This document shows, in pieces, positions 1,066 to 32,371 of a stretch of DNA of 64,000 nt (its first letter is position 1; the number at the start of each line of letters is the position of its first letter). The notes beneath the pieces are model-generated. The model saw only the letters and a list, made by a program, of their open reading frames with translations, searched no databases and was not told the DNA's origin. The translations under genes were made by a program, and so were the position numbers. Source of the DNA: an uncultured Geobacteraceae bacterium (GTDB taxonomy: Bacteria > Desulfobacterota > Desulfuromonadia > Geobacterales > Pseudopelobacteraceae); NCBI GenBank assembly GCA_903901875.1, contig CAIUSO010000091.1:1-64000 (forward strand), given 5' to 3'.

Positions 1066-4000
1066 TTAATGGCTCTTTTTATGGTAGTTGAATACATCGG
1101 TAACAGGTGACCATGTGTGCTTCGGGTCGTAACTACCATCAAGGATATCGTGGAATAATTCACCGGTTACCGTTGCCTGGGCTGTAGGTAGACCGGTAAC
1201 CATGCCAACGGCCCCCGCGGCCTTCTTGCCCAAATTGGCCTCGCTCCAATCATCTTTAGTTACAGCGTTAGTCACGTCATATAAAGACTCTAACCCACTG
1301 TAGATAGGCATGGGACGAAGCGTGTAATGTTCTCCTGTAATCGCAGCCTCTGTCTTTTTGGCAAAATCTCTTATTATCGGGATCCCATCTGCAAAACCGA
1401 ACGTCAACCGTGCCAACAACCATTTAGGTATTTTCTCCGGATCATCAGGATACTTGCCTCGTATCAGATCAAACATTATTGCCTGTGGCAAATACATGAA
1501 CACTAACGTCTTCACAGCGTTCATAGTTGAATCCTTGGTCAAGCCCTTATCCTTGATCATGGTTGCCGCTTCGGAATAATGATTGTAAGCTACCAGCGAA
1601 GGCCCGATGAACTGGGTCAAACTCCTCACCCACTGATTGCTCTGCCCCTCTATTGCCGACAGGTCACCCTTCCGACCGGAAACCTGTGTTATCCTCACAA
1701 CCGAGTCCGCAAACCTACGTGACTGCTCTTCCGTATATCCACGATTCTGCCCTTCCTGATAGCCTGACAACCATCCGAGTGCCGCAGATTCACGGTAGAA
1801 AAACATCTTTGTCATCATGCCGAACTTTTTAATGTCGTTTGCCACTGAATGTCTGCCGGAGAGATCATTCAGTGCTTCTACAAAGTCGCGGTCTATTTCA
1901 TGGGAAAGGTTTTTCAGGAAAGGGCTGGTAGATTCTGCAAAGTTGACAGCATTGTTCCTGTTTCTGCCATACGCAACGACAGCGTCCCTTACGGATGATG
2001 CGGAACATTCCTTGAATACCGTAACAGCCTGAGTACCCACTTCCGATATCGCGTTCCCTATTCTCAATCCCAGTAACGAAGTAGACATATTACGGCGGAA
2101 TAGAGAGTTCAATTGCCCGACAAATCCCTCTATGTCTTCACTGAACCGGTCAGAGGTGATAGTCTGATCAATCCACCCCTTGAGGTTATTGGCATACTTT
2201 TCTCCCAGTCGGTCCTGCAACGCCTGGTTAACCTGTTCGTCGTTGAGTAGCCGTCGGGCATCCCTGGCGAACTGCCAATGTGAGATATCAAGGATGACAT
2301 CATTCAGGTGCCTGGTAACAATACCTGACCAATTGAGGTCGAGGGGTAGTGCTGCTTTCTCGTTGCGCTCCTTCATGTAGCCTTGCTTGGTATTGCTCCC
2401 TTTGTAGGTAAACAGATCGTTGATCGTTGAGGTATCTTCTTGTAACTTACCGGCCTTCGACCACCGAGCATCATACTTTAGCGGGAAGTAACCGCCTTCC
2501 AGAGTCCCATTTGCAACATCCATCGGCTGCGCTTCAATCCACTTCGGCTCGACTCCTAATCGCCTGCGAGCAAGTGCGGCAGCTTCCGGTTTCAACTTCT
2601 CGATGGTTTTCCATATAGCGTTAATAGAAGTGATATCCTTTGCTGTCAAATGGGACAATATTTCCTGAAGCTGGTCGTGATTCAACTCCAGAGACATATC
2701 TCGGCCCTCAAGTTTCAAACCATTCCGCATTAGTTTATTCATATTCGATTCATTGCCGCAGTTAAGGGCTATGGCAATGATATCGTTTTTGGCGAGGCTC
2801 GCACCAATTGACTCTATCCGGTGGGTAATAGGACGATTGAAACGGTCAGTACGACCCTCAAACCCCTTGTTCCTGACTATTTCCATGATATCCGGATACA
2901 CCATCTGCATCAGACGTATCTGATGGTCAGCTGCATCATTATAGCTGTTCATCAGCGCGTCATGCCACGGGCCAATATCTTTGTAGTTGTCCAAACGGCG
3001 AAAGATGAACTCGCGGCGTTTCAGCACCAGATCGAGCGGATAATTCGCATATTTCTCAAACAGATCCTGTGATGCTTTGGTATCTGCTTTTTTACTCTCC
3101 TTGACTGCAGAGTAAACTGACCGAGACATCTTGCCAGCCATAAGCTGACGATCCACCATCTCGCCATTGACACGAACCTTGTTCATATCACGCGCAGCAG
3201 TTTCAATCATCTTGAGTGTGTCACGTACAGAACGGAGCTCATTCATCTTTAGCTGGTCGAGCTGCTTGCCGGGGTTCTCGATAAAGCTGGTATCGATAGG
3301 GAGCGGAGTTCCGGCGCGTTCCTCAAACCCTGCCAACCAATCACGGAAGGGCTGACGTATGGTAGTATTGTCAGGCGGGACCACTCCGAACCGTTCCAGA
3401 ATCCCCTGCACCTGCCCCAGCATCTCCTGATCAGCTTTCCCAATATCTCCGAGTTTCCGCTTACTGACTATGCCGATATAGTCGCCGATCTTCTTCACTT
3501 CTGCCTTGGCTCGGGAAGCTTCAAGGAACATGAAGTGATTGAGCAGCTGGCGCGTACGTGCATCCGCAGCCAGATCATATTTACCCTCACCATTCAGCTT
3601 GAAGGCATCACGAGCTGACTGCCGTTCTGCTACCAGGTACTTATATGGGCTGATACCTTTGGCATCCTGCTCACCGATATGACGCCATGCAGTTTCACGG
3701 AATTCTGCATAAGTCGGTATTTTAGTAGCAGACTCTCTGCGTTGCTCGGCAGCAGCACGATCCGCTGCATTGATAAACGGTTTAACCTGGTTGGCTTTGG
3801 CTCTGAGTGCCTTGATTTCAGCCTCCAGTACCTTTGACCATTGCTCGTTGTGGACTGCCACCGTTGCCTCATCAACGATAGAACCGTCCAGGTGCATGGC
3901 GCCATGTTGTTCGTTCATCCGTGCCGCGGTTTCCTGAGCGACATAGCTTTTATATGATGGAGTCTCTATCATCCTCTTGATCATGGTATCAGCAGAATCG

Positions 4001-10873: not shown

Positions 10874-13561
10874 TTAACTTCCGCCTGCTGATACCTCGGG
10901 GATCACCGTCAAGATGGTAATCGGAAGGGGCCTTGCTTGCCGGACGAACATACGCCCTGCTTTGTTCCATGTTGCCTGGACTCTCATGTCCATGATGCCA
11001 GACGCAGACGTTGCCACCTGATCGTACGAGAGGCGTTCCTGCTTGTACTCAGTGAGATGATTAACGTCAGGGCCGGCCAATACTCCCATTGACTCCTCAA
11101 CGATCAGTGAGATGTGGTTGATAAGCTTCTTCTTGTCGCGGATGTCGTTTTGACTGGAAGCAATATCAAGAGTCTCGAAATCGGAGACAATCGGCAGGCC
11201 AATGTGAACAACAGCCCCTGGATAGGGGAGAGTGACTACGCCACCGGTAACGACCTGTTGCCCCAGTGCGAACCCATCGGCCAGGATATCAACCGTATTG
11301 CCTTCCAGATGATTAAGCCCGGCCATGGTATTACGAGCAAAGGCCCAATCAGTCCGTGCGGTATCTTGGTATGCTGTCGGGAGCATGCAGTTCGCTATCA
11401 CCTGCACGTGCTGAGTGTCGGTAAAGACGATGATCTTGAGGCGGTATACCTTGTCACCGTAGGTGAAGGCGATGAGATCCCCGAGGTCACCCGCTTGAAA
11501 CAGAGCAGAAGAGGAAACCAACGTCAGCGTTTCCTTCTCGTCCCAGTTGACCCCGCCTGTGATTGATATCGTTGTTGTGCCGGCATTCCGACCGTCATAA
11601 CTCAGACCGCAATCAACGAAGTAAGCATCTGCCATGGTTTCAAAGTATCGGGTATTCATCCGCTCCACATACCGCTTTGAAACTCCGTTGATGGTCCGGT
11701 TTACGAGGAAGTACACCACGTCCTCATTCCCTTCTGAGATGCAGGCCACCGACTCAAAGAGTCCATCGGTATCGTGACGATGCCACCCTGCTACCTGTTG
11801 GTCAGGCATATAGGTAAAACCGAGCAGGGCACCATCTTCACGCACAGCCCACGCGCAGGAGAACGGCACCGCCTGAAAGCACCACTCTTTGATTGTGTGC
11901 TGGTAGAAGAGGTGACTTGACATCAGAGTAAGATCCTGACCAACGAAGCTGTCAGCCTGCCAGGAGTAGCCGAGAGAACGTACTTGTGAGCCCTTTTCCT
12001 GAATATAGAGGGCCACATTGTTGATGACGATAGGAGGGACGTGTGAACAGCCACTTGCACCCTGCTTTTTGCAGATGGTTTTTCCCGGTGCGAGGACACC
12101 ATCAGTGCCTCCAGACACACGAAATGGGCCGTCGGAAGTGAGCAGGATCAAGTCGGTGAGCTCGACGAAATGACGTATCTCATTTGCCTTGCGGGAGTTG
12201 AGAGTCACAGAGAGTGCGTCATCGTCCAGAAGAGGGACGCTGGTGCCAAAGTCCGTGAAGCCTGCTGAACGACTCATCCAGAATGATTGTGGCTTTGTTG
12301 GAGAACCAGCGAAGCATTGACGCTGTTGGATGTAGGCCACCGACCCAGGATACGCAGGGACAATGCCCCACGACTCGAAAGCCCATTTATACGTGGGTTG
12401 TGCCGTGAGCGTCTTTGCCGCAACGCCACCACCCCCATAACTCCCACTGCCATACACTCCGGACAGTTCAAAGTTGTTCACATCGTCAGCGATGATCTGG
12501 GCGGTACCATTGATGCCTGACATACCCACGATACCCGATATGGTCACAGAATCACCGGTACTGAAACCGTGGGCCGGACATACGATCTTGGCATTGACCG
12601 GCAATGAATAGGTACCGGTGCCCGTTCCATCATCCACCGGAGGATAGCCAGCCGTTGCGCCAGTAATGGTTCTCGACATGGTTCCGGTAACGGTTGAATC
12701 CGGAAGCCTGGAGAGTACTGTACCGGTGGCAATCTTGCTCGACGTGACACCGGTAATAAGGATAATTCCGCTCCCTGAATGCAGGTATGACCATTTAACG
12801 CCGGGGTCTCCGTCTGACTCGCTCCCCTCCATGCAAGTTGGCCGGACGGTTCCGGTCGTTCCCGAGTTCAGAGCTTGATAGTAGCTTGAACCACCCCGTC
12901 TGATATCGTTGACCATTATTGCCTTTTGTACTTCCCACTTGAGCACTCGGTCATCGGGGGCAGCTTCGAGATACATCATCATACCAACGTGACCGGCAAG
13001 AAACAGATCGTTGACAGAGGTAATTGTCACGGAGCCGGTCATCGCGCTGACACTCAAGGTCATGCTGGTGTCGATATTGATATCCTGGAAAGGGCCGTTG
13101 ACATTGTTGAACGCCGATAACGTCCATGCTGTGTGAGACGTACGAGAAAGCTGTTGTGGTGGATAGAGTGGGTGGCAGATCGTCATTACATCGGCAGATT
13201 GCGTGAACTTCAACAGCGGAAGATCGTTCTCCCCCCAGATGGTTGCAACCTGCACCGGTACGGAGCCGTTCATCACCACGCCACCGTTCATGATGACCTG
13301 CATGGTGTAATGGCCGAATACCAGAATATAAGCCTGAGTCGTGGAGAACTCGAACGGGATCAGTCGCGCCTTTCTGGTTGAATCAAGTATCTCCGTGATG
13401 AACTGAGTACCTGGGCGGTTGGTCACCCCACCGAAGGGACGCACGATGAAGTTGCGGCACGTTTTGAGGCCGGTGTAGTAGGAGGCGAAATCAACCCGAC
13501 CATACAGAGACGGTGCCAGTTCTCCCGAGGTGAAACTTGCCTGTACGATTCCAGAGCCCAT
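10874..13561 (-). CDS. Tail tubular protein B / nozzle (T7 gp12-position)
   Basis: 895 residues, beta-rich. The N-terminus (FTSGELAPSLYGRVDFASYYTGLKTCRNFIVRPFGGVTNRPGT, residues 10-52) is the conserved opening of the podoviral nozzle family: GELxPxlygR, then C.N....P.Gg...RpG. The product forms the end of the short tail. It starts one base after the stop of the adaptor gene and precedes the internal virion genes, the same order as gp11-gp12 in T7. No enzymatic domain was seen. Confidence 0.8.
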   Translation of the reverse strand: MGSGIVQASFTSGELAPSLYGRVDFASYYTGLKTCRNFIVRPFGGVTNRPGTQFITEILDSTRKARLIPFEFSTTQAYILVFGHYTMQVIMNGGVVMNGSVPVQVATIWGENDLPLLKFTQSADVMTICHPLYPPQQLSRTSHTAWTLSAFNNVNGPFQDINIDTSMTLSVSAMTGSVTITSVNDLFLAGHVGMMMYLEAAPDDRVLKWEVQKAIMVNDIRRGGSSYYQALNSGTTGTVRPTCMEGSESDGDPGVKWSYLHSGSGIILITGVTSSKIATGTVLSRLPDSTVTGTMSRTITGATAGYPPVDDGTGTGTYSLPVNAKIVCPAHGFSTGDSVTISGIVGMSGINGTAQIIADDVNNFELSGVYGSGSYGGGGVAAKTLTAQPTYKWAFESWGIVPAYPGSVAYIQQRQCFAGSPTKPQSFWMSRSAGFTDFGTSVPLLDDDALSVTLNSRKANEIRHFVELTDLILLTSDGPFRVSGGTDGVLAPGKTICKKQGASGCSHVPPIVINNVALYIQEKGSQVRSLGYSWQADSFVGQDLTLMSSHLFYQHTIKEWCFQAVPFSCAWAVREDGALLGFTYMPDQQVAGWHRHDTDGLFESVACISEGNEDVVYFLVNRTINGVSKRYVERMNTRYFETMADAYFVDCGLSYDGRNAGTTTISITGGVNWDEKETLTLVSSSALFQAGDLGDLIAFTYGDKVYRLKIIVFTDTQHVQVIANCMLPTAYQDTARTDWAFARNTMAGLNHLEGNTVDILADGFALGQQVVTGGVVTLPYPGAVVHIGLPIVSDFETLDIASSQNDIRDKKKLINHISLIVEESMGVLAGPDVNHLTEYKQERLSYDQVATSASGIMDMRVQATWNKAGRMFVRQARPLPITILTVIPEVSAGGS

Positions 13562-14203
13562 TTATTGCCTCGCCAGTATCAATTCAGATGTTGGTTCGAC
13601 TGCCGGCCGTGACTCATTCATCATCGATGCCCCAGCTCTAAGCAACGCCGATGTATATGCATTGGCAGCAGACTGGGCCATGTTCGGAGCAGCGGAGAGA
13701 GGAGCGGCAATATCAGACGCCAACGCCCACCCCAGGGTGTCGAAGGCCAGTGAAGAAAAGAGCATAAGATTCGTAATCTGTGCCGTGTACACCAGCGATA
13801 CCGGTGACAGGTTGCACACGATAGCCAGACCACCGGAAGCTTCATCTTCAACCACCTCATAGGGTATTTGTGGATCGTTGGTATAGTTGATGTCACCGGG
13901 ATAGAGGTATTGCGTCGGGTATCCGGTGATGTCTGCGGAGAATACTGATCTCACTTTCAGGCAGTCATTCGGGTACCTAAATCGGTATGACCAGCCACGG
14001 GGAGGCGAGCCGATGTCTTGCAGGTCAGCTGTGCGCTTGGCAAAGTTCCATGGCATATCTGCGAGCACACGATCCCGCGCGTTCTCGTAGAACACCCGGC
14101 ATACTCTCGCCTCATTACTCTGCTCGTCCAGTGTTGCTATGAACTGAGAGATTCCCAGACGGCCCAGCGACGTGTTGCAAAGTTCCACTACTGACTTGCC
14201 CAT
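13562..14203 (-). CDS. Tail tubular protein A / head-tail adaptor (T7 gp11-like)
   Basis: 213 residues. Begins SVVELCNTSLGRLGI and continues with SNEARVCRVFYENARDRVLADMPWNFAKR (about 28-56) and WSYRFRYPNDCLKVRSV, the signature of gp11/adaptor proteins: a helical start, then lxxhpWnfa and YPxDclr motifs. The C-terminus (LGWALASDIAAPLSAAPNMAQ) is also typical. It docks under the portal and connects it to the nozzle encoded immediately downstream. Confidence in the family is high. Confidence 0.85.
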   Translation of the reverse strand: MGKSVVELCNTSLGRLGISQFIATLDEQSNEARVCRVFYENARDRVLADMPWNFAKRTADLQDIGSPPRGWSYRFRYPNDCLKVRSVFSADITGYPTQYLYPGDINYTNDPQIPYEVVEDEASGGLAIVCNLSPVSLVYTAQITNLMLFSSLAFDTLGWALASDIAAPLSAAPNMAQSAANAYTSALLRAGASMMNESRPAVEPTSELILARQ

Positions 14204-14222
14204 TGATCACCTCGGAGAAGTA

Positions 14223-14244
14223 GGGGGAGAGCGGACCCTCCCCC
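14223..14244 (-). other. GC-rich hairpin between capsid accessory gene and adaptor gene
   Basis: Seven-base perfect stem (GGGGGAG at 14223-14229, CTCCCCC at 14238-14244) with an 8-base loop in the 47-bp gap between two late genes. No U-run follows on either strand, so it is more likely an RNA processing or stability element, or a weak pause, than a classical terminator. Confidence 0.35.
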
Positions 14245-14250
14245 TTGTTG

Positions 14251-14529
14251 TTACGCTTCGACTTTAATCTGTTGTGGTTCTTTGCTGTCTTCCTGTGCCC
14301 CTGAAAGAGTGTCAGCAGCGGGGTCAGGTTCAACAGCAACCGGAGCAGCGACGACGGCCTTCTTCACTCCCAACCGTGCCAGGGCAGCTTTCGCTCCCTT
14401 GTCAAGTGGTGTCCATGTGCGGGAAGGATCGACAGAATCGTCGAGGGTAATTTCCTGCGGGTTAGTAGGATCAGCAGGGAAGAACTGATTACCCACAAGA
14501 GCGTTTGCTTTGATCAGGTATCTAGCCAT
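14251..14529 (-). CDS. Small phage structural-region protein, unknown function
   Basis: 92 residues. The N-terminal part (ARYLIKANALVGNQFFPADPTNPQEITLDD) looks folded and is followed by WTPLDKGAKAALARLG and an alanine/proline/valine-rich acidic tail (VVAAPVAVEPDPAADT). Similar small proteins with a low-complexity tail often lie between capsid and adaptor genes in podoviruses, but the family was not recognised. Its start is preceded by GGGAGGGACC, a strong ribosome site, and it lies 17 bases after the cement protein gene. Confidence 0.65.
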   Translation of the reverse strand: MARYLIKANALVGNQFFPADPTNPQEITLDDSVDPSRTWTPLDKGAKAALARLGVKKAVVAAPVAVEPDPAADTLSGAQEDSKEPQQIKVEA

Positions 14530-14546
14530 GAGTAGGTCCCTCCCCC

Positions 14547-14957
14547 TTAGTACATTGGATTCTGGGTATTTTTCACCAGATACGCAGTGAAGTTACCGGC
14601 AGTGGTATTGCTGGTTAGCGGCGTGTACTGAAAACCGATGTACCGCTTTGACGTCGGGGGAACGATGAGCTTCATGAGCTCGGTCCCGCCTGCCGGAGTT
14701 GCGGCAGTGGTGATTGATGCCAGAATATCGGGCGACGAAAGGTTAGTGTTGGCGGACTGGATCAGGTCGATCTTGACGCCACCAGAACCGCCCACAACGG
14801 TCGTGTCGCACTGGACATAAGCGTAAACCGGTTCGCCGGTTCCCAAATCGGCATTGGCCGAGCCGTTGTCATAGGTGTTAGTGGAAGGAATCGCGGTTCC
14901 GAAGTTTCCGCTGATTGCCTGAGAAGCAGAAAGCTGAGTTTGCATATCGAGGTACAT
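14547..14957 (-). CDS. Capsid cement/decoration protein, Bbp16-like
   Basis: 136 residues, beta-rich and rich in Thr, Ser and Gly. The text YLDMQTQLSASQAI, a central VYAYVQCDTTV strand, and KRYIGFQYTPLTSNTTAGNFTAYLV agree with the Bbp16 family of cement proteins first described in Bordetella phage BPP-1, which clamp the outside of the capsid lattice. It directly follows the major capsid gene, as in that phage, and has an AAGGAGG ribosome site at about 14970, suitable for a protein needed in amounts equal to capsid protein. Confidence 0.75.
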   Translation of the reverse strand: MYLDMQTQLSASQAISGNFGTAIPSTNTYDNGSANADLGTGEPVYAYVQCDTTVVGGSGGVKIDLIQSANTNLSSPDILASITTAATPAGGTELMKLIVPPTSKRYIGFQYTPLTSNTTAGNFTAYLVKNTQNPMY

Positions 14958-18938: not shown

Positions 18939-20516
18939 CTACTTGAATGGGTCATAATCTGAAACATGGTTCGATGATGAAAGCCGCTGTATCTCTTTTG
19001 CCCCTTCTGCAAAGGGGTCATACGAACTCACATGATTACCTTTACTGTGCCTGAACCCTGTGGGCGATACGGGAAAGGCGAAGGAGAGAGCCAGAGCATC
19101 ACCACGGTTCGGAGAGCCGAGGGAACGACGCTTCATATCTTCCTTGCTCTCTAGCACTATCTTTCCGTCAAGCCTGACATCGTACTCAGGGCCGATAAGG
19201 TCATCAGCAAGCATCTGGTCGTTCTCAGGGATTGATCCACCTTCGGCCAGCCACTTCTTGGTTGCTCCCCAGATCTCACCACGCTTGTTGAGATAGGCCG
19301 GATCGTTGGAAGCTCCGCCAAAGCTCACCAGCTGCCAACGTCTACCCCATGAAGCCCCCACAGACTTGACACCAGTGCCATACCCAAAGTCTATGAACAC
19401 CGCATCAGCCTTGTGCTCGTCTTCCAGTTGCGCCAGCTTCTGGGCCAACCACACGTCGTCCTCAATTTGGTAACCGGTCCAGAGGACAACGAAGTGAAGG
19501 CCACGGCGCATGCCAATAACGTACTCGTCACCACCAGACCAGGCAGGGTCGAGAGTGATGATGACTGCAGCATGGGCAACGTCACGCTCGGTGACGGTTC
19601 GCCTCCGCGCAGCATCGACCAGGTCGGTAGGGATAAACTGTTTTGAGGATGACGAAGGGAATATCCCTCGCACCCTCACCTTCACAAAATCTGAATCAAT
19701 GCCATAATCGTCAATCCACTGCTGGATGAGTTTCTTGTTGGTGATCTTGACGGATCGGCTGTCAATCTGCCTGACTCCCCACCGGTGCCGGAGCTTCCCG
19801 AAACACTGGTGGAACTTGCCGCTGTTTCTGGTAGGGTTCCCGAAAACGAACATCATCGGTTCACCGTCGGTCAAACCACCTTCGGCAACCTCGAAGATAG
19901 GGTCCGGTACCGCTGAGCCTTCGTCAAAGATGTAGAATGGTGTCGAGTTAGCGGCATGCAGACCGGCAAAAGCCTCGCTGTTTTCCTCTCGGCACGTCTG
20001 GGCGTCACAACGCCATGACTCGGGATAATCCTTGTGGACCATCTTCATCGAGCCCTTTCCGGTTGACACCTGAAACCAATGGCCGGTGATGCATCGCTTT
20101 GTCCATGTTGCCACTTGGGCCCACGTCTTCGTCTCAAGCTGAGGCGCAGTATTCGCCGTGATAATGCCACGGGCAAAAGGTCGGGTGGACATGATCCAGT
20201 TGGTGAGCCAGGCAACCATTGCCGACTTGCCTATGCCGTGGCCTGATGATATCGCCTCGCGGATCGGCTCCACTGAATGCTGGCCGTCGAAACCGCGCTC
20301 CCTGACTTTCTTGCCCAGCTCGTCAAGGAACTGGCAGGCCCAGAGGTCAGGCCCATACTTGCACTTGAAACCGGAAGCATACGGCTCTTCCAGTTCCACC
20401 ATCGAAAGGGCCGGGTCGGTGTCCCACTCGTAAGCGTAAATGACAAAGCCCAAGGGATCGTCGTAGAAACGACCCATGTGCTCCATCAGCATTTGTTCGC
20501 TATTTAATTCCGGCAC
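18939..20516 (-). CDS. terL: Terminase large subunit
   Basis: 525 residues. ATPase motifs: Walker A GHGIGKSA at about 92-99, Walker B FYIFDEG with Asp198-Glu199. Nuclease domain acidic motifs: IITLDPAWSGGDE, then AVFIDFGYGTG, then RGDALALSFAF near the C-terminus. The protein cuts concatemeric DNA and pumps it into the prohead through the portal. It overlaps the small subunit gene by 17 bases. The type (cos or headful) cannot be assigned confidently from sequence alone. Confidence 0.9.
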   Translation of the reverse strand: MPELNSEQMLMEHMGRFYDDPLGFVIYAYEWDTDPALSMVELEEPYASGFKCKYGPDLWACQFLDELGKKVRERGFDGQHSVEPIREAISSGHGIGKSAMVAWLTNWIMSTRPFARGIITANTAPQLETKTWAQVATWTKRCITGHWFQVSTGKGSMKMVHKDYPESWRCDAQTCREENSEAFAGLHAANSTPFYIFDEGSAVPDPIFEVAEGGLTDGEPMMFVFGNPTRNSGKFHQCFGKLRHRWGVRQIDSRSVKITNKKLIQQWIDDYGIDSDFVKVRVRGIFPSSSSKQFIPTDLVDAARRRTVTERDVAHAAVIITLDPAWSGGDEYVIGMRRGLHFVVLWTGYQIEDDVWLAQKLAQLEDEHKADAVFIDFGYGTGVKSVGASWGRRWQLVSFGGASNDPAYLNKRGEIWGATKKWLAEGGSIPENDQMLADDLIGPEYDVRLDGKIVLESKEDMKRRSLGSPNRGDALALSFAFPVSPTGFRHSKGNHVSSYDPFAEGAKEIQRLSSSNHVSDYDPFK

Positions 20517-20880
20517 GAGCGGCAGCCCCCATGATTTTGGTACAGTCGATTACGCCAGCAACTTCGATCTTGTCGGTGAACATTTTGAGGTGACGCCCGA
20601 GCAACTCATTTGCCTTGAGAGCTTCGTTTAGTTTTCCCGCTTGCATAGCCCTTGTCCTGATATCGATAATGGACTGGAGGACATTATCCGCGCTCAGATT
20701 TAATTTTTTAGAACGTTCTGAAACTGCTTTTTCGATTGCAGCAGCAACGTTATTTTTCGTTATCAACTGCCGTCCGATATTTGCGTCTTTGTACCCAGCT
20801 CTCCCCGCTGCCGCAGTAGCGTTCAGATCAATGAGATACTCCTCAACGAACTTCTGCTGTTTTGAGGTGAGCTTGCTCAT
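20500..20880 (-). CDS. terS: Terminase small subunit
   Basis: 126 residues. N-terminal HTH of the usual kind: LTSKQQKFVEEYLIDLNATAAAGRAGYKDANIG (residues 4-36), matching the LtxkQ..Fv.eYl.d.NatqAaiRAGYs signature. The middle (KLNLSADNVLQSI) and the helical rest form the oligomerisation region. It recognises the packaging site and guides TerL. The start at 20880 follows AAAGG with an 8-base gap, and the preceding micro-ORF stop (TGA) lies two bases before the ATG. Confidence 0.88.
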   Translation of the reverse strand: MSKLTSKQQKFVEEYLIDLNATAAAGRAGYKDANIGRQLITKNNVAAAIEKAVSERSKKLNLSADNVLQSIIDIRTRAMQAGKLNEALKANELLGRHLKMFTDKIEVAGVIDCTKIMGAAARAGIK

Positions 20881-21563: not shown

Positions 21564-21580
21564 TGGTGTCAAATCCTCCT

Positions 21581-21892
21581 CATTACAAATGTAATGCTTA
21601 TAAATCAGTATGTTGCAAGGCTTTTTAGGCTAAAATGGTCGGTTTGTAATGCGATGTAATGAAAATGTAATGCTCTAAGTTATTGATTACAAATAACAAA
21701 CCCTCTATAAATAACAATACATTACAGTAATATATAATATATACACTATACGCGCGTGCGTGTACGTGTACGTGTACGCACATGTATGCGTGTGTGGGGT
21801 TATTTTTCTGATTGTAATGTAATTTCGTAAGGTGTTCGATATAGTTAGACATTTTGTCTTTTTTCCTGTAATGGAATCGTAATGTTGTAATG
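21581..21892. repeat. TGTAATG repeat array, candidate phage replication origin
   Basis: Nine exact copies of TGTAATG or its complement lie in 312 bases: forward at 21590, 21645, 21655, 21666, 21813, 21867 and 21886, reverse (CATTACA) at 21581 and 21720. The first two form a near-palindrome with arms of 7 bases. Those at 21645, 21655 and 21666 are spaced by 10 and 11 bases, that is one DNA turn. Near copies are TGTAATT (21818) and CGTAATG (about 21879). The block from 21,573 to 21,914 has no convincing gene, is AT-rich and lies next to the primase-helicase operon, all of which suit an iteron-type origin. Confidence 0.6.
21747..21796. repeat. 50-bp perfectly alternating purine-pyrimidine tract
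   Basis: Every base from 21747 to 21796 alternates pyrimidine and purine without a break, mostly CG, TG/CA and TA steps, including three copies of CGTGTA in tandem (about 21759-21777). It lies in the middle of the TGTAATG array, flanked on the left by TATATAATATATA. Such tracts can adopt left-handed Z-DNA and unwind easily under negative supercoiling. No reading frame of substance needs this sequence. Confidence 0.85.
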
Positions 21893-21914
21893 AAATCAGC
21901 TCGTGCGCGGCTTT

Positions 21915-22214
21915 TTATTGTTGGCTGCACAGATCGTGCACAACTTGTGCACGAGTCGATTCGTACCCTCTATTTTTGTTTTTCTGGATCATTCTTGTGA
22001 TCACTTCGAGCGGATGCAGTCCATATTCACGCTCAATAATCCATAATAACGTCATGGCGGCCTGCATCACGTCGGCTGCTTCCTCTGCCACTCTACTGAT
22101 ATTTGGCTCATGATAATATGCCTGATATAGTTCTTCCAGCTCTCCAGAGATGTATTTTATTTGCTCATATTTACCGTTAGTATCAGCGTATTTGAGGCGC
22201 GGTAATAGTATCAT
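21915..22214 (-). CDS. MazG-like nucleotide pyrophosphohydrolase family protein
   Basis: 99 residues, all helical. Motifs ISGELEELYQAYYHEP (residues about 24-39) and RVAEEAADVMQAAMTLLW (about 43-60) give the ExxExxE-type and EExxD metal-binding pattern of the MazG/all-alpha NTP pyrophosphatase superfamily, with KNKNRGY near the C-terminus as in other phage MazG-like proteins. It would hydrolyse (d)NTPs or alarmone-like nucleotides. It overlaps the primase-helicase gene by four bases (ATGA), placing it in the replication operon, and its 3' end contains a long palindrome. Confidence 0.7.
   Translation of the reverse strand: MILLPRLKYADTNGKYEQIKYISGELEELYQAYYHEPNISRVAEEAADVMQAAMTLLWIIEREYGLHPLEVITRMIQKNKNRGYESTRAQVVHDLCSQQ
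21934..21954. promoter_or_regulatory. 21-bp palindrome at the 3' end of the MazG-like gene
   Basis: TCGTGCACAA-C-TTGTGCACGA is a perfect inverted repeat with 10-base arms around one central base. It lies within the last codons of the MazG-like gene, next to the repeat-rich candidate origin. Coding sequence need not form such symmetry. It could be a protein binding site or a transcript hairpin; no U-run follows, so simple termination is unlikely. Confidence 0.5.
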
Positions 22215-24850
22215 GCTCCCTCCGTAACATATGATAACGGCAGCATCTTAGTACGCACCGCTCCGCCTGAAAACCATGTCGGTTTATCCGAAGTTACTGC
22301 GCCAGGCAAGCGACCGATGATCTGCGCCCAGTTCGCTGGCCACGTTGTGCGCTCCATGATTTTCTTAAGCTCTCCGTGCTGATTTGCAATACAGAAGCCG
22401 CCCTGTACAACCCTGAAACCATGATTTTTGAGTGCTGTTTGAGCCGGACTATTTTCATCAATAAACATCGTTGCCGAAACTGTGCGAATCAACTCCGCAA
22501 TACTGACATTATCTCCTGACGGCATGCGTACCAGGTGTTCAAGCATTGCCGCTAAGCAGCGCAGCTCGTCGGTCTGTTCCTGCGTTATTTTATGCTCAGT
22601 CCAATCAATCGACTGCACAAACCTCATAGCATCATCCTTGTTTATCACTCCTGTTGATCGGAGGGCCCAATCACCCGCAAGCATGGCCCCTATCTGGTCG
22701 CCAGCGCGTTTATTCTCCATAACTAACCCCACAGCATCAGAAAAAATAAGAGCATTCTGTACAATTACCGGGATATTTTTAACCATTCGGGCACGAAGTG
22801 CAGAGCAAAAATCATCCGTTATGGTATCTTTCCAGAGTGGAATAATTACTTCCTGAAAATGCTTGCCACCATCGTTCTTGTTTCTGAGTGTCAGTACCGA
22901 TATTCGGGACTGATCCGCCTGTTGCGTCTGAGATATGCCAATTGATGCGAAACAGAACATAGAACGAATCCTGAATGCCTGGGCCCGTCCGCCCATAGTA
23001 CCCTTGTAAATACTGCCGCCAGATTCGCTGGACGCCTGCCGTGCAAGTTCTAATATCTGCTGCATGCGTTGATGCGCCTTCTGGTCTTCCCCCTCAGCCT
23101 CGTCAAAAATAACCGGCCTGGCATCGGCACCTAGTGCCTGCCTGATCCCCGCCTCTGACGTTGCACCCTGGACTATGAGCGCACCAGGACCGGAAACCGG
23201 TCTAACGATATTGTCAATAATCCATGACTTGCCACATCCAGCCCCGCCCGTGATTTGAATATGTGGTCTCCAGGAAAGAGCTCCACATATAGCAGACAGA
23301 GCGCACCACCCGGCAAGCAGCTTTCCGCTTATATCGCCACGCTGCCATGACAATGCGTCACAGAGTTTTTCCAACTTAATAGCCTCTCTATTCGGAAGGG
23401 TGTCTTTCCCGATATCGAACTTCATTTTAATTGATCGCTCATAGATGAATTCTGAGTCCAGTTTCTCAATTTTGACCGGGGATCCATTAACGATCAATTC
23501 ATTGCCAACGTGGACAACGGATCTATCTGCGTCGAACCATGCACCGCGCCCCCTGATTTTATTTGAATCGTACACACCGATCGACTGATTGATTTGAATC
23601 ATTGCGTTGGCCGCTTTATCAACATCCATTCCGCCGTTTTTACCACCGTTGAAATCAGAAGCTTCCCAACGTTGCAGCGGAGCCAACTCCATCAAGTGAG
23701 ACCTGGTATGTTCCGGAGCACGCAATACCTTTACTTGCCGTGTACCATGTGGCAGATAGAAATAATCGCCATGATTGTACCCGAGTAATTTAAATGGTAG
23801 GGAATGGAATGGGTTCGGGGCTTTGTCGCAGTCGTACGGATCTATAAAATCTTCAGGGCAAGGTTCGTAGTCAGGATTGTATTCTTCCATCGGAGGTGGA
23901 AACAGACAGACTCTAACTGCATCCAGGTTAACCAGGTTGTACAAATCGTTAAAATCTGTCGGGTGTGACGATGTATCAACGAATCTTGGAAATCGGACCG
24001 CTGCTGTGATAGAACAGGCAGCTTCTTCAGCCTTGACCCTCCCAGTATTAATCCGCTTCCCGCCGTTCAATTCGCACGGAACCTCATGATAAACAATTGA
24101 GCCATCTTCTTTCGTTTCTTTTGCCCAGCGGTCATCATCACCAGCAATAATATAATTCCAGTCAGGGCGCTTTGCCCTTGCAGCCTCAGCAACGGCCTTC
24201 AAGTTTCCTGCCACGAACGCAATTAATACAGCATGACCGGTTGCCTGGTGGATCGATGCACCCGTTGCATAACCTTCAGTGATAATCAACGTGTTATCGA
24301 CCGGCTTACCGATCATATGGACAGCTCCGGAAATATCAACTCCGGTCTTGAAAACCTTCGTCCCATCAGGCTTGATAAACTGCAAGCCGCGCAACTCATT
24401 TTTAAGAGATTTAATCGGCACCAGGAGCGCGTCACCCATCAGACGGAGGCCAAAGGCCTTGACCTGCTTACGTTGCAGATATAGGTGATCATCTGTAGCC
24501 GGTGCAGCTGCAGACCATATTGTTTTACATTTTTCAACGCACTCTTCCGCGGCCTGCTTGCGGTCTTCAGCCTGTCTGCGCCGAAGGTCTTCTTGCCGCT
24601 TGCGATATTCTTTCTTTTCTTCGTCGGTCAGTTCTTTGGTGTCGCGGCTACACCACTTGATTGCCCCGTTACTGTTGCCTACCCATCGACCAAATGCGCC
24701 AGACTGTAAGCCGTTATCGGCGGGATAGAGGATATACCAGTTCTTTTTGTTCTGCGGTTTGTCGGACGGCCCGGCGTACCGGTGCAGCTTGCCATCGTCT
24801 AGTAATGTATCGGGTGCGTCCAACCCCGCCTCACGCATAGCATTTATCAT
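22211..24850 (-). CDS. TOPRIM primase - helicase (DUF927-like) replication protein
   Basis: 879 residues. The N-terminal part has a charged linker (about 75-105) and a TOPRIM domain: LIITEGYATGASI with Glu192, IIAGDDD with Asp238-240, then HPTDFNDLY near 305. The C-terminal half holds an AAA-type helicase: Walker A GGAGCGKSW at about 538, Walker B PVIFDEAEGED at about 583. This is the layout of phage and plasmid primase-helicases (DUF927 type) that prime and unwind at the origin. No zinc-binding primase finger is evident at the N-terminus. The gene is flanked by the VRR-NUC gene and the MazG-like gene, next to the candidate origin. Confidence 0.85.
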   Translation of the reverse strand: MINAMREAGLDAPDTLLDDGKLHRYAGPSDKPQNKKNWYILYPADNGLQSGAFGRWVGNSNGAIKWCSRDTKELTDEEKKEYRKRQEDLRRRQAEDRKQAAEECVEKCKTIWSAAAPATDDHLYLQRKQVKAFGLRLMGDALLVPIKSLKNELRGLQFIKPDGTKVFKTGVDISGAVHMIGKPVDNTLIITEGYATGASIHQATGHAVLIAFVAGNLKAVAEAARAKRPDWNYIIAGDDDRWAKETKEDGSIVYHEVPCELNGGKRINTGRVKAEEAACSITAAVRFPRFVDTSSHPTDFNDLYNLVNLDAVRVCLFPPPMEEYNPDYEPCPEDFIDPYDCDKAPNPFHSLPFKLLGYNHGDYFYLPHGTRQVKVLRAPEHTRSHLMELAPLQRWEASDFNGGKNGGMDVDKAANAMIQINQSIGVYDSNKIRGRGAWFDADRSVVHVGNELIVNGSPVKIEKLDSEFIYERSIKMKFDIGKDTLPNREAIKLEKLCDALSWQRGDISGKLLAGWCALSAICGALSWRPHIQITGGAGCGKSWIIDNIVRPVSGPGALIVQGATSEAGIRQALGADARPVIFDEAEGEDQKAHQRMQQILELARQASSESGGSIYKGTMGGRAQAFRIRSMFCFASIGISQTQQADQSRISVLTLRNKNDGGKHFQEVIIPLWKDTITDDFCSALRARMVKNIPVIVQNALIFSDAVGLVMENKRAGDQIGAMLAGDWALRSTGVINKDDAMRFVQSIDWTEHKITQEQTDELRCLAAMLEHLVRMPSGDNVSIAELIRTVSATMFIDENSPAQTALKNHGFRVVQGGFCIANQHGELKKIMERTTWPANWAQIIGRLPGAVTSDKPTWFSGGAVRTKMLPLSYVTEGA

Positions 24851-24878: not shown

Positions 24879-25265
24879 TTACAACAGCGGATTACAAACA
24901 CCCAGAGCTTCATCAACTGACCGGACCACTCCGGCCAGGCCTCCGGCACGGCGAACGGCATTTATGAAATTAATCTGCTCCATGGTGGGTTTGCCCGAGG
25001 GGGTCTTTACCTCCAAGGCGAGAAATAACGCGACGGGCTTGCCTACCATGTCCGGAGTGACCGTTATTGAACGCCACCCCACAAGGTCAGAGGATCCGAC
25101 GCACAAACCGAACTGCACCCGCCGCCCGTTGACGATATGGTACTGGCCACCCTCCTGCTTGACTACCTGGCCCAGGACGCCGTTGCCGGTGTTGTTCCGG
25201 AATACAGTGGCGCCGGTCTGACTGGCTGCGAGCATAATCTGTTTTTGAATGTTGTTTTCGGTCAT
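24879..25265 (-). CDS. VRR-NUC domain nuclease
   Basis: 128 residues from the ATG at 25265, which overlaps the helicase stop (ATGA). The sequence has FRNNTGNGVLGQV, then SSDLVGWRSI with the first acidic residue, then ALFLALEVKTPSGKPTMEQINFINAVRRAGG, containing the E-x-K catalytic pair (EVK) and the QxxF helix. That is the VRR-NUC form of the PD-(D/E)XK nuclease fold, often encoded beside SF2 helicases in phages and possibly acting on branched DNA. The ending VVRSVDEAL is typical. Confidence 0.85.
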   Translation of the reverse strand: MTENNIQKQIMLAASQTGATVFRNNTGNGVLGQVVKQEGGQYHIVNGRRVQFGLCVGSSDLVGWRSITVTPDMVGKPVALFLALEVKTPSGKPTMEQINFINAVRRAGGLAGVVRSVDEALGVCNPLL

Positions 25266-26698
25266 GACGCATATGCCAGCGACGGAGAGCCGCCGCGCTG
25301 CTGTCGTGCCCGGTACCGATGATATGCCCAGCCCGGCGCATACCCGCGACGCTCTGCCAGTGCTTGGAAATCCTGCAATGTGCGGCACTGCCCCTCTTCC
25401 CTGCGCTGGAACATTTTCTTGCGGTCTGCTTCAATCTCGGCCAACCGCTTTGCGTCCAGCTCCTGCAGCTCACCCTCAGCCTGCTCTATCTCCCGGGCGG
25501 TAACCTCATACACATAACCACAGAATGGACAGCGCGGCGCGGGAACGTGCACGGCGTAACACTGTTCACACTGCTTGACTTTAATATTTTGCTCGTCGTT
25601 TTTCTTCTTGGTGCTCTTGTTATCGCCATCCAGCGTCCATTCCCTATCCTCGTCCGGCATACCGTGCCGCATGACGTTGCCGACATGGTCCAGGATGATG
25701 GCGTATTTTTTGCCGGAATACATCCGGAGCGACCGCCCTACCTGCTGGAGATACAGACCCATCGATGCGGTAGGCCTCAGAAGGATCGCCGCACCTACGA
25801 TCGGGATGTCAGTGCCCTCGCTGATAATGTCGCAGCTGGTGAGAACATGCAGACCACCATTCCCCAGGGCGCTGATACGGGCCTTGCGGTCGTTGTCGTG
25901 CATGGTACCGTCGATACTTGCCGCCTGAAAACCGGCTGCCCGAAACTGTTCGGCTACGTGCTCGGCATGGGCCACCGACGAACAAAACGCGATCGCCGGG
26001 ATCCCGTTGGCCAACTTCTGGTAATGCTTCACCGCGCAGCCGGTAATGACTGGTTTATCGAGTGCCGCGGCCGATTCAGCCGTTACGAATTCTCCGTATT
26101 TTTTGCGGAGGTTCGACAGATCCGCTCCGATCGGCGGGGCGTAGATTTTCGGCTCTGCCAGAAAACCCTGCTTGATCAGTGCGGAAACAGTAGGGCCATT
26201 CACCATTGAATCAAAGAACCCGCCGGAGGATCGACCGAGACCTTTCCCGTCAAGCCGTACAGGAGTGGCAGTCACTCCCAGGATGTTGGCTTGCGAGAAA
26301 TGAGCGAAAATCTTTGCCCAGGACGCGGCACCGGCATGATGACACTCATCGGAGATGATCAGCTGTGGAGTGTGAATCTTAGTCAGCCGCTTCACAAGCG
26401 TCTGCACGCTGGCCACCTGGACGTTATCCCATGTGGGTGTGTAACCTGGTGCGATGATGCCGTGCTCGACACCGATCTCCTGCAATGAAGCAGAAGTCTG
26501 TCTGATGAGCTCCTGCCGGTGTACCAGGATAAGGACGCGGTTACCTCTCTTGCTGGCACCCTCGGTGATGTAGGAAAACACGACGGTCTTGCCGCCGCCT
26601 GTGGGGAGTTGGTAAAGGACGTTGCGGTCACCCCTCCGGAATCGCTCCCGGAGGGCTTGAACGCCAGTTTGTTGATAGTCGCGAAGTTCAAATTTCAC
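25262..26698 (-). CDS. SF2 DEAD/DEAH-box helicase with C-terminal zinc finger
   Basis: 478 residues. Motif Q-like LRDYQQTGVQAL, motif I LPTGGGKT (31-38), motif II DECHH (117-121), motif III GVTATPVR, motif VI QQVGRSLRM: a complete SF2 set like that of RadD/YejH-type helicases. A CEQCYAVHVPAPRCPFCG segment near residue 385 is a zinc finger with four cysteines. It forms a tight overlapping unit with the VRR-NUC gene downstream and the SMC-like ATPase upstream, pointing to joint action in recombination-dependent replication. Confidence 0.85.
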   Translation of the reverse strand: MKFELRDYQQTGVQALRERFRRGDRNVLYQLPTGGGKTVVFSYITEGASKRGNRVLILVHRQELIRQTSASLQEIGVEHGIIAPGYTPTWDNVQVASVQTLVKRLTKIHTPQLIISDECHHAGAASWAKIFAHFSQANILGVTATPVRLDGKGLGRSSGGFFDSMVNGPTVSALIKQGFLAEPKIYAPPIGADLSNLRKKYGEFVTAESAAALDKPVITGCAVKHYQKLANGIPAIAFCSSVAHAEHVAEQFRAAGFQAASIDGTMHDNDRKARISALGNGGLHVLTSCDIISEGTDIPIVGAAILLRPTASMGLYLQQVGRSLRMYSGKKYAIILDHVGNVMRHGMPDEDREWTLDGDNKSTKKKNDEQNIKVKQCEQCYAVHVPAPRCPFCGYVYEVTAREIEQAEGELQELDAKRLAEIEADRKKMFQRREEGQCRTLQDFQALAERRGYAPGWAYHRYRARQQRGGSPSLAYAS

Positions 26699-28446: not shown

Positions 28447-29691
28447 TTAATCCTCCAATGCGTATGGGTGGGTTGTCATGAGGGTGTCCCATGCGGTTGT
28501 GCACTCTTCAGGGGTGCTGAACTTCTTCCAGGTTCGCCAGCCGGAACCGTATTTGATGCGGAGATCTTCTTTGCGGTAGAACTCAAAGCCCTTGTCACGA
28601 AGAGCGGAGATGCACTTGTGGCTTGGTACCGCGGCTATAATATTCCCGGAAATATAGATCATTCCATCAGTGATCATCGTTTCAAGGTCACGTTCTGCTG
28701 CTGAGAATGTCTCACGAGCTAGCAAGTGCAGCCATCCGGCTCTTGGATCAACGGCAGTTACACTCAACTGTTTTTCATAACGATCATATTTAACAAGCTG
28801 GAAACCTGCGGCGAGAATCTTGGCTTCATTGCGTTTGTATCCCCATCCCATGAGCTCGTTGAAAGTGAGCTGGATAGTTGTGGGGGATGGCAGCCTGCTG
28901 GGTTCACCTATGAAACAGATTCCGGCCTCTTCATTCGCGGGGGTGAAGCAGATGCCCTTGTGCTGGCACTCTGTCCAAATCTTACAGATTGAATCACGTC
29001 GCTGATTCTCGGTCTCTTCGATCAAACACAACTGCTGTACGTTACAAATTTCTGTGCAGGTTGTGCAGCACATAGCGCACCGTGTCGATTCGTGACAACG
29101 AACACACTCAGCAGGAATTTCCTTGCTAACTGCCTCTTCACACTCTTCAACATATTCAAGCTCATTGCACCCATTCGGGCAGCAGACGTCATACTTGAGG
29201 CAGTTATCATTTGCGCAGATCATGGCGGCTGGTTCGTCGACATCATCTATGTCCAGCTTGTGCTCAATCTGAAGGATTTCGCCTTCAATAACGTTGTCCC
29301 GCTCTTCACGCCGGTCTTGTGCTTCATCTCTCCGGTCCTTCTCACCATCAAAATCAAACTTTTTCTGCTTTTCGTCGTCCGACATTTTGCGCTGGTCAAT
29401 GGTTACGCCAGTGTCTGTTCTGACTGTGTAGACCATGCCTTTTGAGTAGTCGAAATCAAGATCACATTCAACCTGTCGATCTTCCTTCTTGGTGATAATC
29501 TTGCGGGCCAGTGCTCGCCCATCGGCAACGCACTTATTCAGCTTGGCGGCAAAATTCGACATGACCTCTTTTTTCTCGGCCTCGATCTCGGACTGATCGC
29601 CGGTGATCCGGGCCAGTTCCTGGCTGTAGGTGGATATCTCGTCCTGGGTCAGATCACAGGAGAGGTTTTTCCAAAGTGTATGTTTTGACAT
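28447..29691 (-). CDS. Cysteine-rich early phage protein, modular
   Basis: 414 residues in three parts. Residues 1-120 (LTQDEISTYSQELARITGDQSEIEAEKKEVMSNF as text, with RQVECDLDFDYSKGMVYTV) resemble a small helical protein often found alone in phage early regions. Residues about 159-257 contain 18 cysteines, many as CC, CxxC and CxxxxC (DVCCPNGC, CAMCCTTCTEIC), enough for several zinc or iron-sulphur sites. The last 140 residues look like a separate folded domain (GWGYKRNEAKILAAGFQLVKYDRYEKQ). The stop/start overlaps the RecT-like gene (TAATG). The whole protein was not recognised as a known family; a role in recombination or host takeover is a guess from location. Confidence 0.6.
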   Translation of the reverse strand: MSKHTLWKNLSCDLTQDEISTYSQELARITGDQSEIEAEKKEVMSNFAAKLNKCVADGRALARKIITKKEDRQVECDLDFDYSKGMVYTVRTDTGVTIDQRKMSDDEKQKKFDFDGEKDRRDEAQDRREERDNVIEGEILQIEHKLDIDDVDEPAAMICANDNCLKYDVCCPNGCNELEYVEECEEAVSKEIPAECVRCHESTRCAMCCTTCTEICNVQQLCLIEETENQRRDSICKIWTECQHKGICFTPANEEAGICFIGEPSRLPSPTTIQLTFNELMGWGYKRNEAKILAAGFQLVKYDRYEKQLSVTAVDPRAGWLHLLARETFSAAERDLETMITDGMIYISGNIIAAVPSHKCISALRDKGFEFYRKEDLRIKYGSGWRTWKKFSTPEECTTAWDTLMTTHPYALED

Positions 29692-30677
29692 TAGAATAGG
29701 TCTCCCATCGGTTCGGATTCAGCCGGTTCGTTGGATGCGGCAGCCGGGTGAGGCGGTTCTTCAGGAATGCCTCCTGGAGGATCCGGGAAATCGTCTTCGT
29801 TTGAATCCAGAATATGCGCCGGTGGTCCGTCATCTTGCTGAGCTGCCTGCTTGTCGGCCTCTATCTGGGCCCTGGTGCGGCGGTTGCGTGTCTGTTTCTG
29901 TTCTGCTGTCTCGACGGTCGGCTGTTTGATAACCTCGCCAGTCTGTTCGTCAACGATTTCGACAGTGGGGGCGACCAAGGTGGGCGATTTTTCAGAGGCG
30001 GGGTCGGAGTCTATTACCACTGTCTTTGGGGTTTCAGCAGGTTCCACTAGAGCAGGGGCTTCTTTCCGATCCGGAGTGATATTTATAGGTTTGATATCTT
30101 CCAGCTCTTCGCGGGTCTGCATCCCCATAGTGATATTCGGGCAATAGACCTTTGCAAAATAAGAAGCTGCGCGGTACATAAACATGATTGACGGCATGGT
30201 TTTCCATTTGGATCCTTGCTTACTCAGCCAGCCTTCACCCTCTACCATCTGATAAGTGATCCAGGGACCAAGGCAAACCTTACCGGTTTTCTTAATCGTG
30301 GCGAAACAGCGCACTTTATAATTTTTGGCATAAGGATCATCACCAAAGATTTCGTATTCCAGCGGATCAGCAAAAATGCCGGAGTCATTCACCAAGGCGA
30401 CAATCAGCTTGGCCTCCATGGACGGCTTCCCTTGGATGATCACCAACGATTGCAACATGGCAAACGGACTGATACCCATGCGGTCGGCCATTTCAATAGC
30501 GATAAAGCAGTTTTCGGGCTTGCCTTTGTACGCGGCTGGCACAAGATCTGACGAGCTGAACAACTTAGATGCTCTCCATATCTGGTCAAATGCGGCGGGG
30601 TTATAGAGGGCTGGTTTACCATTATCGATCTTGGCAACGGCGGTGGTGGTTTCTTGTACAACGATTTCGTTACTCAT
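29691..30677 (-). CDS. RecT-like single-strand annealing protein
   Basis: 328 residues from the ATG at 30677, which sits 8 bases after GGAGG (the TTG 15 bases upstream overlaps that site). Residues about 25-200 carry the pattern of RecT-superfamily annealing proteins: SSDLVPAAYKGKPENCFIAIEMADRMGISPFAMLQSL as text in order, GKPSMEAKLIVALVN, GSKWKTMPSIMFMYRAASYFAKVYCPNITMGMQTREE in order. A Pro/Glu/Ala-rich disordered tail follows and ends EPMGDLF, similar to the acidic tip of SSB proteins. It pairs with the RecB-like nuclease encoded upstream. Confidence 0.75.
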   Translation of the reverse strand: MSNEIVVQETTTAVAKIDNGKPALYNPAAFDQIWRASKLFSSSDLVPAAYKGKPENCFIAIEMADRMGISPFAMLQSLVIIQGKPSMEAKLIVALVNDSGIFADPLEYEIFGDDPYAKNYKVRCFATIKKTGKVCLGPWITYQMVEGEGWLSKQGSKWKTMPSIMFMYRAASYFAKVYCPNITMGMQTREELEDIKPINITPDRKEAPALVEPAETPKTVVIDSDPASEKSPTLVAPTVEIVDEQTGEVIKQPTVETAEQKQTRNRRTRAQIEADKQAAQQDDGPPAHILDSNEDDFPDPPGGIPEEPPHPAAASNEPAESEPMGDLF

Positions 30678-30696
30678 TATCGTGTCCTCCAAAAGT

Positions 30697-32023: not shown

Positions 32024-32371
32024 CTATTCCCCGTCTTCTTCAAAAGTGTCAATATCAACGTACCTAAGGGCATCTCCGTCAGATTCAACGGCTTTCAGGC
32101 AGATAGGCTCGGTCTGTTCCTTGACGTACCTAAGGGCATATCCGTCAGATTCAACGGCTTTCAGGCAGATAGGCTCGGTCTGTTCCTTGACGTACTGAAG
32201 GGCATCTCCGTTTCTTTCAACGGCTTTCAGGCAGATAGGCTCGGTCTGTTCCTTGACGTACCTCAGGGCATCTCCGTCAGATTCAACGGCTTTCAGGGCT
32301 GCATTACCGGTGAGGGTGAGTGTTGCGGAAACAGTGATTCCAAACTTTGCTAGAAATTCTGATTTTTTCAT
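32024..32371 (-). CDS. 22-residue tandem-repeat protein (DUF4116-like)
   Basis: 115 residues from ATG at 32371, which has AAGGAG eight bases upstream. After a hydrophobic N-terminus (KSEFLAKFGITVSATLTLTG) come near-identical repeats of LKAVESDGDALRYVKEQTEP plus IC, four starts in total, then an acidic end (IDTFEEDGE). The repeat resembles DUF4116 units (AVxxdGxALxyV) found in many phage, protist and bacterial proteins. An alternative ATG at 32479 with GGAGGAG upstream would add 36 residues. The function is unknown; helical repeat scaffolds usually bind other proteins. Confidence 0.65.
   Translation of the reverse strand: MKKSEFLAKFGITVSATLTLTGNAALKAVESDGDALRYVKEQTEPICLKAVERNGDALQYVKEQTEPICLKAVESDGYALRYVKEQTEPICLKAVESDGDALRYVDIDTFEEDGE
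32059..32298. repeat. 66-bp direct repeats, 3 full copies plus a partial
   Basis: Units start at 32059, 32125, 32191 and 32257 (the last about 42 bases long). Copies differ at only a few positions, for example CTAAGG/CTGAAGG and TCAGATTC/TTTCTTTC. The period is exactly 22 codons so copy number can change without breaking the frame. The high identity suggests recent expansion. Confidence 0.9.

Follow-up and report, generated by a model that had tools for sequence, protein, structure and literature searches.

Origins of the lambda O type combine iterons with an AT-rich element, the lambda iterons lying inside the O gene itself, and P4 has a second site, crr, in addition to ori. Iteron origins close to initiator genes are already known from SaPI, SCCmec and P4. 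According to PMC7581432, the C-terminal domain of SaPI Rep recognises iterons downstream of its own gene, and the C-terminal domain of Cch2, the partners of which are a separate primase-polymerase and three iterons, binds direct repeats (AAGTG iterons) located between cch2 and the next gene. P4 alpha, described in part in PMC4234260, unites a Toprim primase, a helicase and a winged-helix origin-binding domain in one chain, with iterated sites. According to PMC4234260, ORF904 of pRN1 is a fused primase-helicase, with a stem-loop origin lacking iterons just downstream of its gene.

The window, i.e. the whole stretch of DNA analysed here (64,000 nucleotides from an uncultured Geobacteraceae bacterium), contains a non-coding block with repeated copies of the word TGTAATG. 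This block is quite likely to be the iteron replication origin of a tailed prophage, with the adjacent gene encoding its initiator. The features of the block and its surroundings are as follows.

21573..21914, no strand: iteron array and candidate origin of replication, flanked by the MazG-like gene and a 74-aa ORF
21581..21672, plus strand: first iteron cluster, TGTAATG at 21581 (minus strand), 21590, 21645, 21655 and 21666
21720..21726, minus strand: lone TGTAATG in inverted orientation, bordering the AT-rich core
21727..21746, no strand: AT-rich core, candidate unwinding element judged from its sequence
21747..21796, no strand: perfect 50-bp alternating purine-pyrimidine tract, Z-DNA-prone
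21813..21892, plus strand: second iteron cluster, TGTAATG at 21813, 21867 and 21886, and a copy with one mismatch, CGTAATG, at 21878-21884
21915..22214, minus strand: MazG-like nucleotide pyrophosphohydrolase (PF03819), between the primase and the array
22211..24850, minus strand: primase-helicase, 879 aa, proposed initiator
24879..25388, minus strand: VRR-NUC nuclease, replication module
25262..26698, minus strand: SF2-type DNA helicase, replication module
29691..30692, minus strand: RecT-like annealing protein (PHROG 561; Pfam RecT below its cut-off), replication/recombination module
20500..20880, minus strand: terminase small subunit, the first identified late gene past the array
18939..20516, minus strand: terminase large subunit (TerL)

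The locus shares with SaPI Rep/ori (7pds, 7ola) an initiator helicase fold and short iterons near the helicase gene, but differs in the fusion of the helicase to a DnaG-type Toprim primase, in its word, TGTAATG, and in the presence of mazG between the gene and the array. The SCCmec Cch structure 5dgk aligns to the C-terminal half of the window protein, whereas the window system, with 9-11 words and a fused primase, differs from that of Cch2. The three-part chain may also resemble P4 alpha in layout, to judge from descriptions of the latter; unlike P4 with crr, the window has no second TGTAATG cluster. As in lambda-type origins, iterons are combined with an AT-rich element, and no O-like initiator was named among the 22 window proteins scanned. 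The likeness to pRN1 ORF904 lies in a fused primase-helicase with an origin near its gene, but the large stem-loop of the pRN1-type origin has no counterpart, as the block folds no better than shuffled sequences (z -0.74; 22 of 100 shuffles folded at least as well). The additions to these known systems are the fusion of a DnaG-type primase to a Cch-like helicase, the fast-changing GTNNC words and the maintained alternating tract. No published description of such arrays was found in the open-licence literature, a scope outside which most subscription journals fall.

The initial annotation had counted nine exact copies of TGTAATG, on both strands, in about 310 bases, and this count holds: seven copies on the plus strand and two on the minus strand lie within 312 bases (21581-21892). 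The spacings between successive array words are 9, 55, 10, 11, 54, 93, 54 and 19 bases, the consecutive values of 10 and 11 corresponding to the phasing of three copies already reported. There are 21 copies in the whole window, whereas shuffles contain 6.7 on average (21 or more in none of 100 shuffles), and the 12 copies outside the array are dispersed over the window; with the rate of these 12 as the background, the Poisson probability of nine copies in about 320 bp is about 3e-17. No other 7-mer in the window is as clustered as TGTAATG, none of the others exceeding five copies in 350 bp. The array was given a score of -10.6 in a coding-masked word scan, and a score of -9 was reached by none of 50 block shuffles of the non-coding DNA of the window. 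In the genome from which the window comes, the paired form TGTAATGNNNTGTAATG is found exactly at the array only and with one mismatch at one more place, and the triple TGTAATG form does not occur elsewhere. The scattering of repeats over the prophage or host that had been named as evidence against an origin was not observed. Four other Geobacterales genomes with the triple pattern hold merely 3-4 TGTAATG each, in other repeats, and a DNA similarity search with the array region returned no match in INPHARED phages or E. coli genomes.

The block is AT-rich, as originally described (66% AT, versus 49% in the window). An overlapping 101-aa ORF was considered as a coding explanation and rejected, despite a frame 71% identical in L002, one of two close relatives compared here. 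Substitutions between the window and L002 are spread evenly over the codon positions of this long frame (18/17/13), and in the other relative, L001 (IMG/VR), stops occur across the block in all three frames of the long-ORF strand. On account of these two observations, we consider the block to be non-coding, as first proposed. The locus thus has a clustered short word in non-coding DNA, an adjacent AT-rich element and, 0.3 kb away, a candidate and presumably cognate initiator gene, as in an iteron origin. Cumulative GC skew, which had been suggested as a check, displayed no switch at the array and lent the origin no support.

L001 and L002 have arrays of the identical word, with 11 and 10 copies, respectively, and the L002 primase is 96% identical to that of the window; absence of the array beside the same primase-helicase, an objection anticipated in the initial annotation, was therefore not encountered in these close relatives. 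Conservation was assessed by defining word columns in one phage and comparing them between the other two, in three leave-one-out comparisons. Word columns were identical in 57/62, 72/75 and 61/68 cases (0.90-0.96), versus 171/250, 183/228 and 166/247 (0.67-0.80) for the columns outside words (Fisher p values of 9e-5, 8e-4 and 1e-4). The short words and the dinucleotide-like tract might suggest a functionless expansion of the sequence by slippage, but the word columns are better conserved than the spacers, the words lie on both strands at non-tandem spacings, and other words recur in relatives, making such an expansion scarcely credible.

The named genes flanking the array are all on the minus strand. 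The upstream side comprises the RecT-like gene, an SbcC-like ATPase, the SF2 helicase, the VRR-NUC nuclease, the primase-helicase and the MazG-like gene, the last two being among the neighbours named in the initial annotation, with mazG between the primase-helicase gene and the array. The downstream side comprises the 74-aa ORF, which has no family match, and then the small and large terminase genes, with head and tail genes further to the left. Seven replication-side ORFs have partners in L001 (61-87% identity) and eight in L002 (85-98%), the gene at 28447-29691 having no partner in either relative. TerL is 25% identical in L001 and has no partner in L002, and the small terminase has no ORF match in L001 and is 51% identical over 77 aa in L002. 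The replication ORFs are conserved and the terminases are unlike, and the array is therefore maintained with the replication module. A packaging site (pac or cos) for the small terminase would also be expected to consist of a core flanked by repeats, immediately preceding the terminase genes. The array does have this upstream position in both the window and L002, the small terminases of which are related, and it is located upstream of the TerL homologue in L001. However, L001 keeps the array despite its divergent TerL and the lack of a small-terminase match, and the TerL of L002 is without a partner; the site is not conserved together with its terminase, one of the two comparisons (L001) being clear, and a role in packaging is distinctly unlikely.

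The array might also be a late-operon control region, located between the early and late modules and offering multiple operators to a phage activator or repressor. It sits at the boundary between the replication and late modules and, in L001, mazG and the array are kept apart by an IS200/IS605 element (12958-14614) comprising a Y1 transposase and a TnpB-type gene; the array need not, therefore, join the replication genes. Nevertheless, a scan for sigma-70-like promoters identified none on the minus strand between 21300 and 22300; the only hit within the block was on the plus strand, and shuffled sequences yielded as many hits. In other phages, analogous arrays are found upstream of the primase gene (Acjo_20) or directly downstream from it, and we consider late control to be unlikely. 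Partition proteins bind iterated words in plasmid-phages, and a partition or other structural site (centromere-like, or for nucleoid binding) could have a similar appearance, but no partition protein was found among the 22 window proteins scanned and the linkage of the array is to the primase-helicase, rendering this function highly improbable.

We return here to the origin and its proposed initiator. An AlphaFold2 model of the primase-helicase (58-row alignment, pLDDT of 89) suggests a Toprim primase (residues 97-317), an AAA+ MCM/Cch-like helicase (approximately 342-758) and a C-terminal winged-helix-like part (approximately 760-822). Residues 97..317 of the model match the T7 primase 1nui (Z 17.3, rmsd 3.1, 180 aligned), DnaG also being matched, residues 342..878 match SCCmec Cch 5dgk (Z 14.1, rmsd 8.6, 434 aligned), and residues 344..764 match SaPI5 Rep 7ola (Z 13.2, rmsd 7.6). 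Among the best 50 structural matches, 5dgk alone extends to residue 878, and MCM chains score similarly over the helicase (approximately 471-758). The first-ranked Foldseek match was PriRep1 with dsDNA, and viral primase-helicases of the NrS-1 and D5 types were also among the best rows, at comparable E-values, so the SaPI/Cch class is not singled out by fold alone. The modelled protein nonetheless appears to have the MCM-like AAA+ helicase fold and C-terminal DNA-binding domain of the SaPI Rep/Cch class, a resemblance to known iteron-binding initiators that goes beyond the initial annotation. The predicted C-terminal elements (helix 761-770, strand 781-783, helices 784-792 and 802-809, strands 812-815 and 818-822) follow an order that we take to be that of a winged helix, as judged from predicted secondary structure only. 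PDB sequence searches with the protein retrieved no initiator among the matches. Residues 736-794 weakly match AcrF10, an anti-CRISPR family (E 2e-4, short of the curated threshold; PDB E 1.6), a match found in two of the 58 family members, which could hint at common origin or be due to chance. Contig C38 (9677-10534) of the same genome (G000) encodes a second Toprim primase, 44% identical over residues 3-314, perhaps belonging to another mobile element.

The initiator-bound origin initially proposed is supported by the clustering and conservation of the words, the linkage of the array to the replication module and its recurrence beside relatives of the gene, from which we infer origin activity, and we lean towards binding of the array by the primase-helicase. 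In the proposed mechanism, the winged-helix-like C-terminal parts of several primase-helicase subunits would bind the TGTAATG words flanking the AT-rich core, helicase rings would assemble on both sides of the core, the core would melt, and the fused DnaG/T7-type primase part would lay the first primers on both strands. The alternating purine-pyrimidine tract beside the core would probably aid strand opening.

Relatives of the primase-helicase with 27-46% identity carry arrays of other words. We analysed 15 distinct named phages from the best 20 matches (two duplicates, PY223, PBb002 and Dolphis were left out), PBb001 and PHB04 being read whole and the other 13 in part. Non-coding arrays with a log10E of -3.8 or better were found in 11 of the 15, so that the search for the repeat in homologous phages advocated in the initial annotation yielded other but similar words in these more distant phages:

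fHe-Yen8-01: ACTGGAAC, overlapping two very short annotated ORFs
Jeremy: GGTTAC
KLER1-1: GCTTACA, starting at the primase stop
MQ-4: GTAACA
ST4: GCTACC
PBb001: CGTAAC, 11 or 30 kb from the primase, depending on topology
Acjo_20: GTTACA, just upstream of the primase gene
phi1422: GGTAACA and CGGTAACA, starting at the primase stop
phiT5282EW: CTGTCACA
ZRG1: CGTTAG
Touem01: GGTAAC

The remaining arrays are further from the primase, at distances of 1.6 to about 12 kb, which weigh against the proposed reading. The Touem01 array was scored on a 2-kb intergenic piece chosen from where its relatives have arrays, and that of PBb001 was found in the second stretch read, another word cluster elsewhere in this phage scoring -3.8. 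No array was detected at the threshold in four of the 15 phages: S-H1 (with the coding mask), PHB04, Mecenats66 and Mwe-JY13. The S-H1 array (CGTTAG/AACGGT) starts at the primase stop and passed the threshold only without the coding mask. GATACC/GGTATC repeats are visible in PHB04, with a weak score, Mecenats66 has six scattered GTAAC (not significant) and Mwe-JY13 has no clear array (not significant). The arrays of S-H1 and phi1422 abut the primase, the annotated terminase being about 1.8 and 7.5 kb beyond, respectively, which again argues against packaging. G074, the primase-helicase of which is 44% identical to that of the window, has a GTTACA array (seven copies, log10E -3.9) about 3 kb from the primase, beyond genes of the opposite strand. 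Four phages were matched over the Toprim half only. M29 and Mano have no array; in Haddon, one cluster, scoring -4.2, is distant from the primase, and another, with a borderline score (-3.0), lies downstream of the primase at about 0.4 kb. The fourth, Alteromonas phage XX1924 (L340, 16044-16256), has a strong array of 12 GGTTCA directly downstream of a TOPRIM primase matching that of the window over residues 3-308 only.

A profile of 18 primase-helicases identified at least 574 relatives in IMG/VR, from which 80 loci (79 new) were kept. In a masked exact-word scan, in which a contig passes (log10E below -3) if it carries some clustered word, 40 of the 79 viral contigs passed and 31 scored below -5; after clustering at 80% identity, 32 of 62 clusters scored below -3 and 25 below -5, no array being detected at the threshold in the other 30. 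Shuffles of the same contigs passed in 1 of 395 cases. Among control contigs, 15 of 165 scored below -3 and 10 below -5, with some words alike, giving densities of about 32 arrays per Mb in test contigs versus about 10 per Mb in controls. The controls exclude contigs of less than 4,000 bases (165 of 182 were used) and hits within 400 bp of a CATTACA cluster; they were fetched by CATTACA patterns and are therefore not a random sample, and their mean size is about 9 kb, versus 16 kb for test contigs. Strong clusters of similar appearance in control contigs L137 (4724-4973, TGTCACA) and L118 (5613-5855, GTAACACA) are perhaps further origins of this kind.

The array starts no more than 400 bp downstream of the primase stop in 18 of the 32 array-bearing clusters, a further argument against packaging. 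Without clustering, this is the case for 24 of 40, the 700 bp downstream accounting for about 20% of the non-coding bases (p 2.5e-8, counting duplicates). Iterons directly downstream are a trait of the SaPI Rep/Cch class, and those 18 clusters have it, whereas mazG intervenes in the window. This frequent position and the difference in word between primase lineages were not part of the initial annotation. The most enriched 5-mer is of the GTNNC form in 28 of 50 arrays, and GTAAC in 20, the values for GTNNC being 2.8% by chance and 1 of 11 in controls; GTAAT, the 5-mer of the window itself, departs only slightly from this form. For this count, nine redundant rows and arrays of less than 100 bp were dropped (leaving 11 of 15 controls), Mecenats66 and Mwe-JY13 were not included, and the 15 arrays not from the contigs, including the sub-threshold S-H1 and PHB04, have coordinates set by hand from earlier scans. 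Word similarity was not correlated with primase similarity for the N-terminal, helicase or C-terminal parts (Mantel p 0.26-0.80; partial C-terminal p 0.13) in 46 arrays obtained after similar drops with a minimum length of 150. Co-evolution of the words with the proposed binding part is therefore unsupported, either because the words drift fast or because the measure of similarity is too crude.

It is possible, and we propose it tentatively, that a phage-wide family of fused DnaG-primase/Cch-like initiators, to which these 574 or more relatives would belong, carries its own iteron origins, with words changing rapidly around a GTNNC frame, joined here to a maintained Z-DNA-prone tract. If this is true, the code by which a winged-helix initiator recognises its DNA might be deciphered from these naturally occurring pairs of protein and word. 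The array described here provides a specific origin, open to testing, for a phage primase-helicase class with a wide distribution. As the word differs by lineage and the position and layout often recur, each phage constitutes a separate test of the choice of origin.

TGTAATG arrays are also found in unlike phages. A scan for the triple pattern matched at least 120 contigs, and the unlike phages, having been picked by the word itself, are given as examples and not as counts. In L111, the array lies where the gene for another primase-helicase ends; in L227, it is located a short distance upstream of a fused primase-polymerase; in L226, it is found between a terminase and an ATPase gene, with other ORFs between. 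These arrays beside other primase types or terminases count against the link to the primase-helicase. An unrelated high-GC viral contig, L054, contains eight TGTAATG and near copies (3364-3694), upstream of a 239-aa ORF with no family match and a TerL gene, an arrangement that favours packaging.

The 50-bp alternating tract stands out in the window, in which the second-longest alternating purine-pyrimidine run is 14 bp. L002 has a run of 50 bp differing in sequence from that of the window, and L001 a run of 26 bp. Between the window and L002, the tract displays 13 transitions and no transversions, versus 24 and 15 over the remainder of the array; the corresponding values for L001 are 19 and 2, versus 38 and 43. 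This pattern reflects either selection on the alternation or mutation of the tract through dinucleotide slippage. Shorter alternating runs are present in PHB04 (19 bp), L054 and L111 (18 bp) and S-H1 (14 bp), and runs of at least 14 bp are absent from 10 of the 17 stretches tested; the tract is therefore not a feature of the family. Elsewhere in the window (32058-32297), a 66-bp tandem repeat with 3.6 copies lies within an ORF with DUF4116 repeats.
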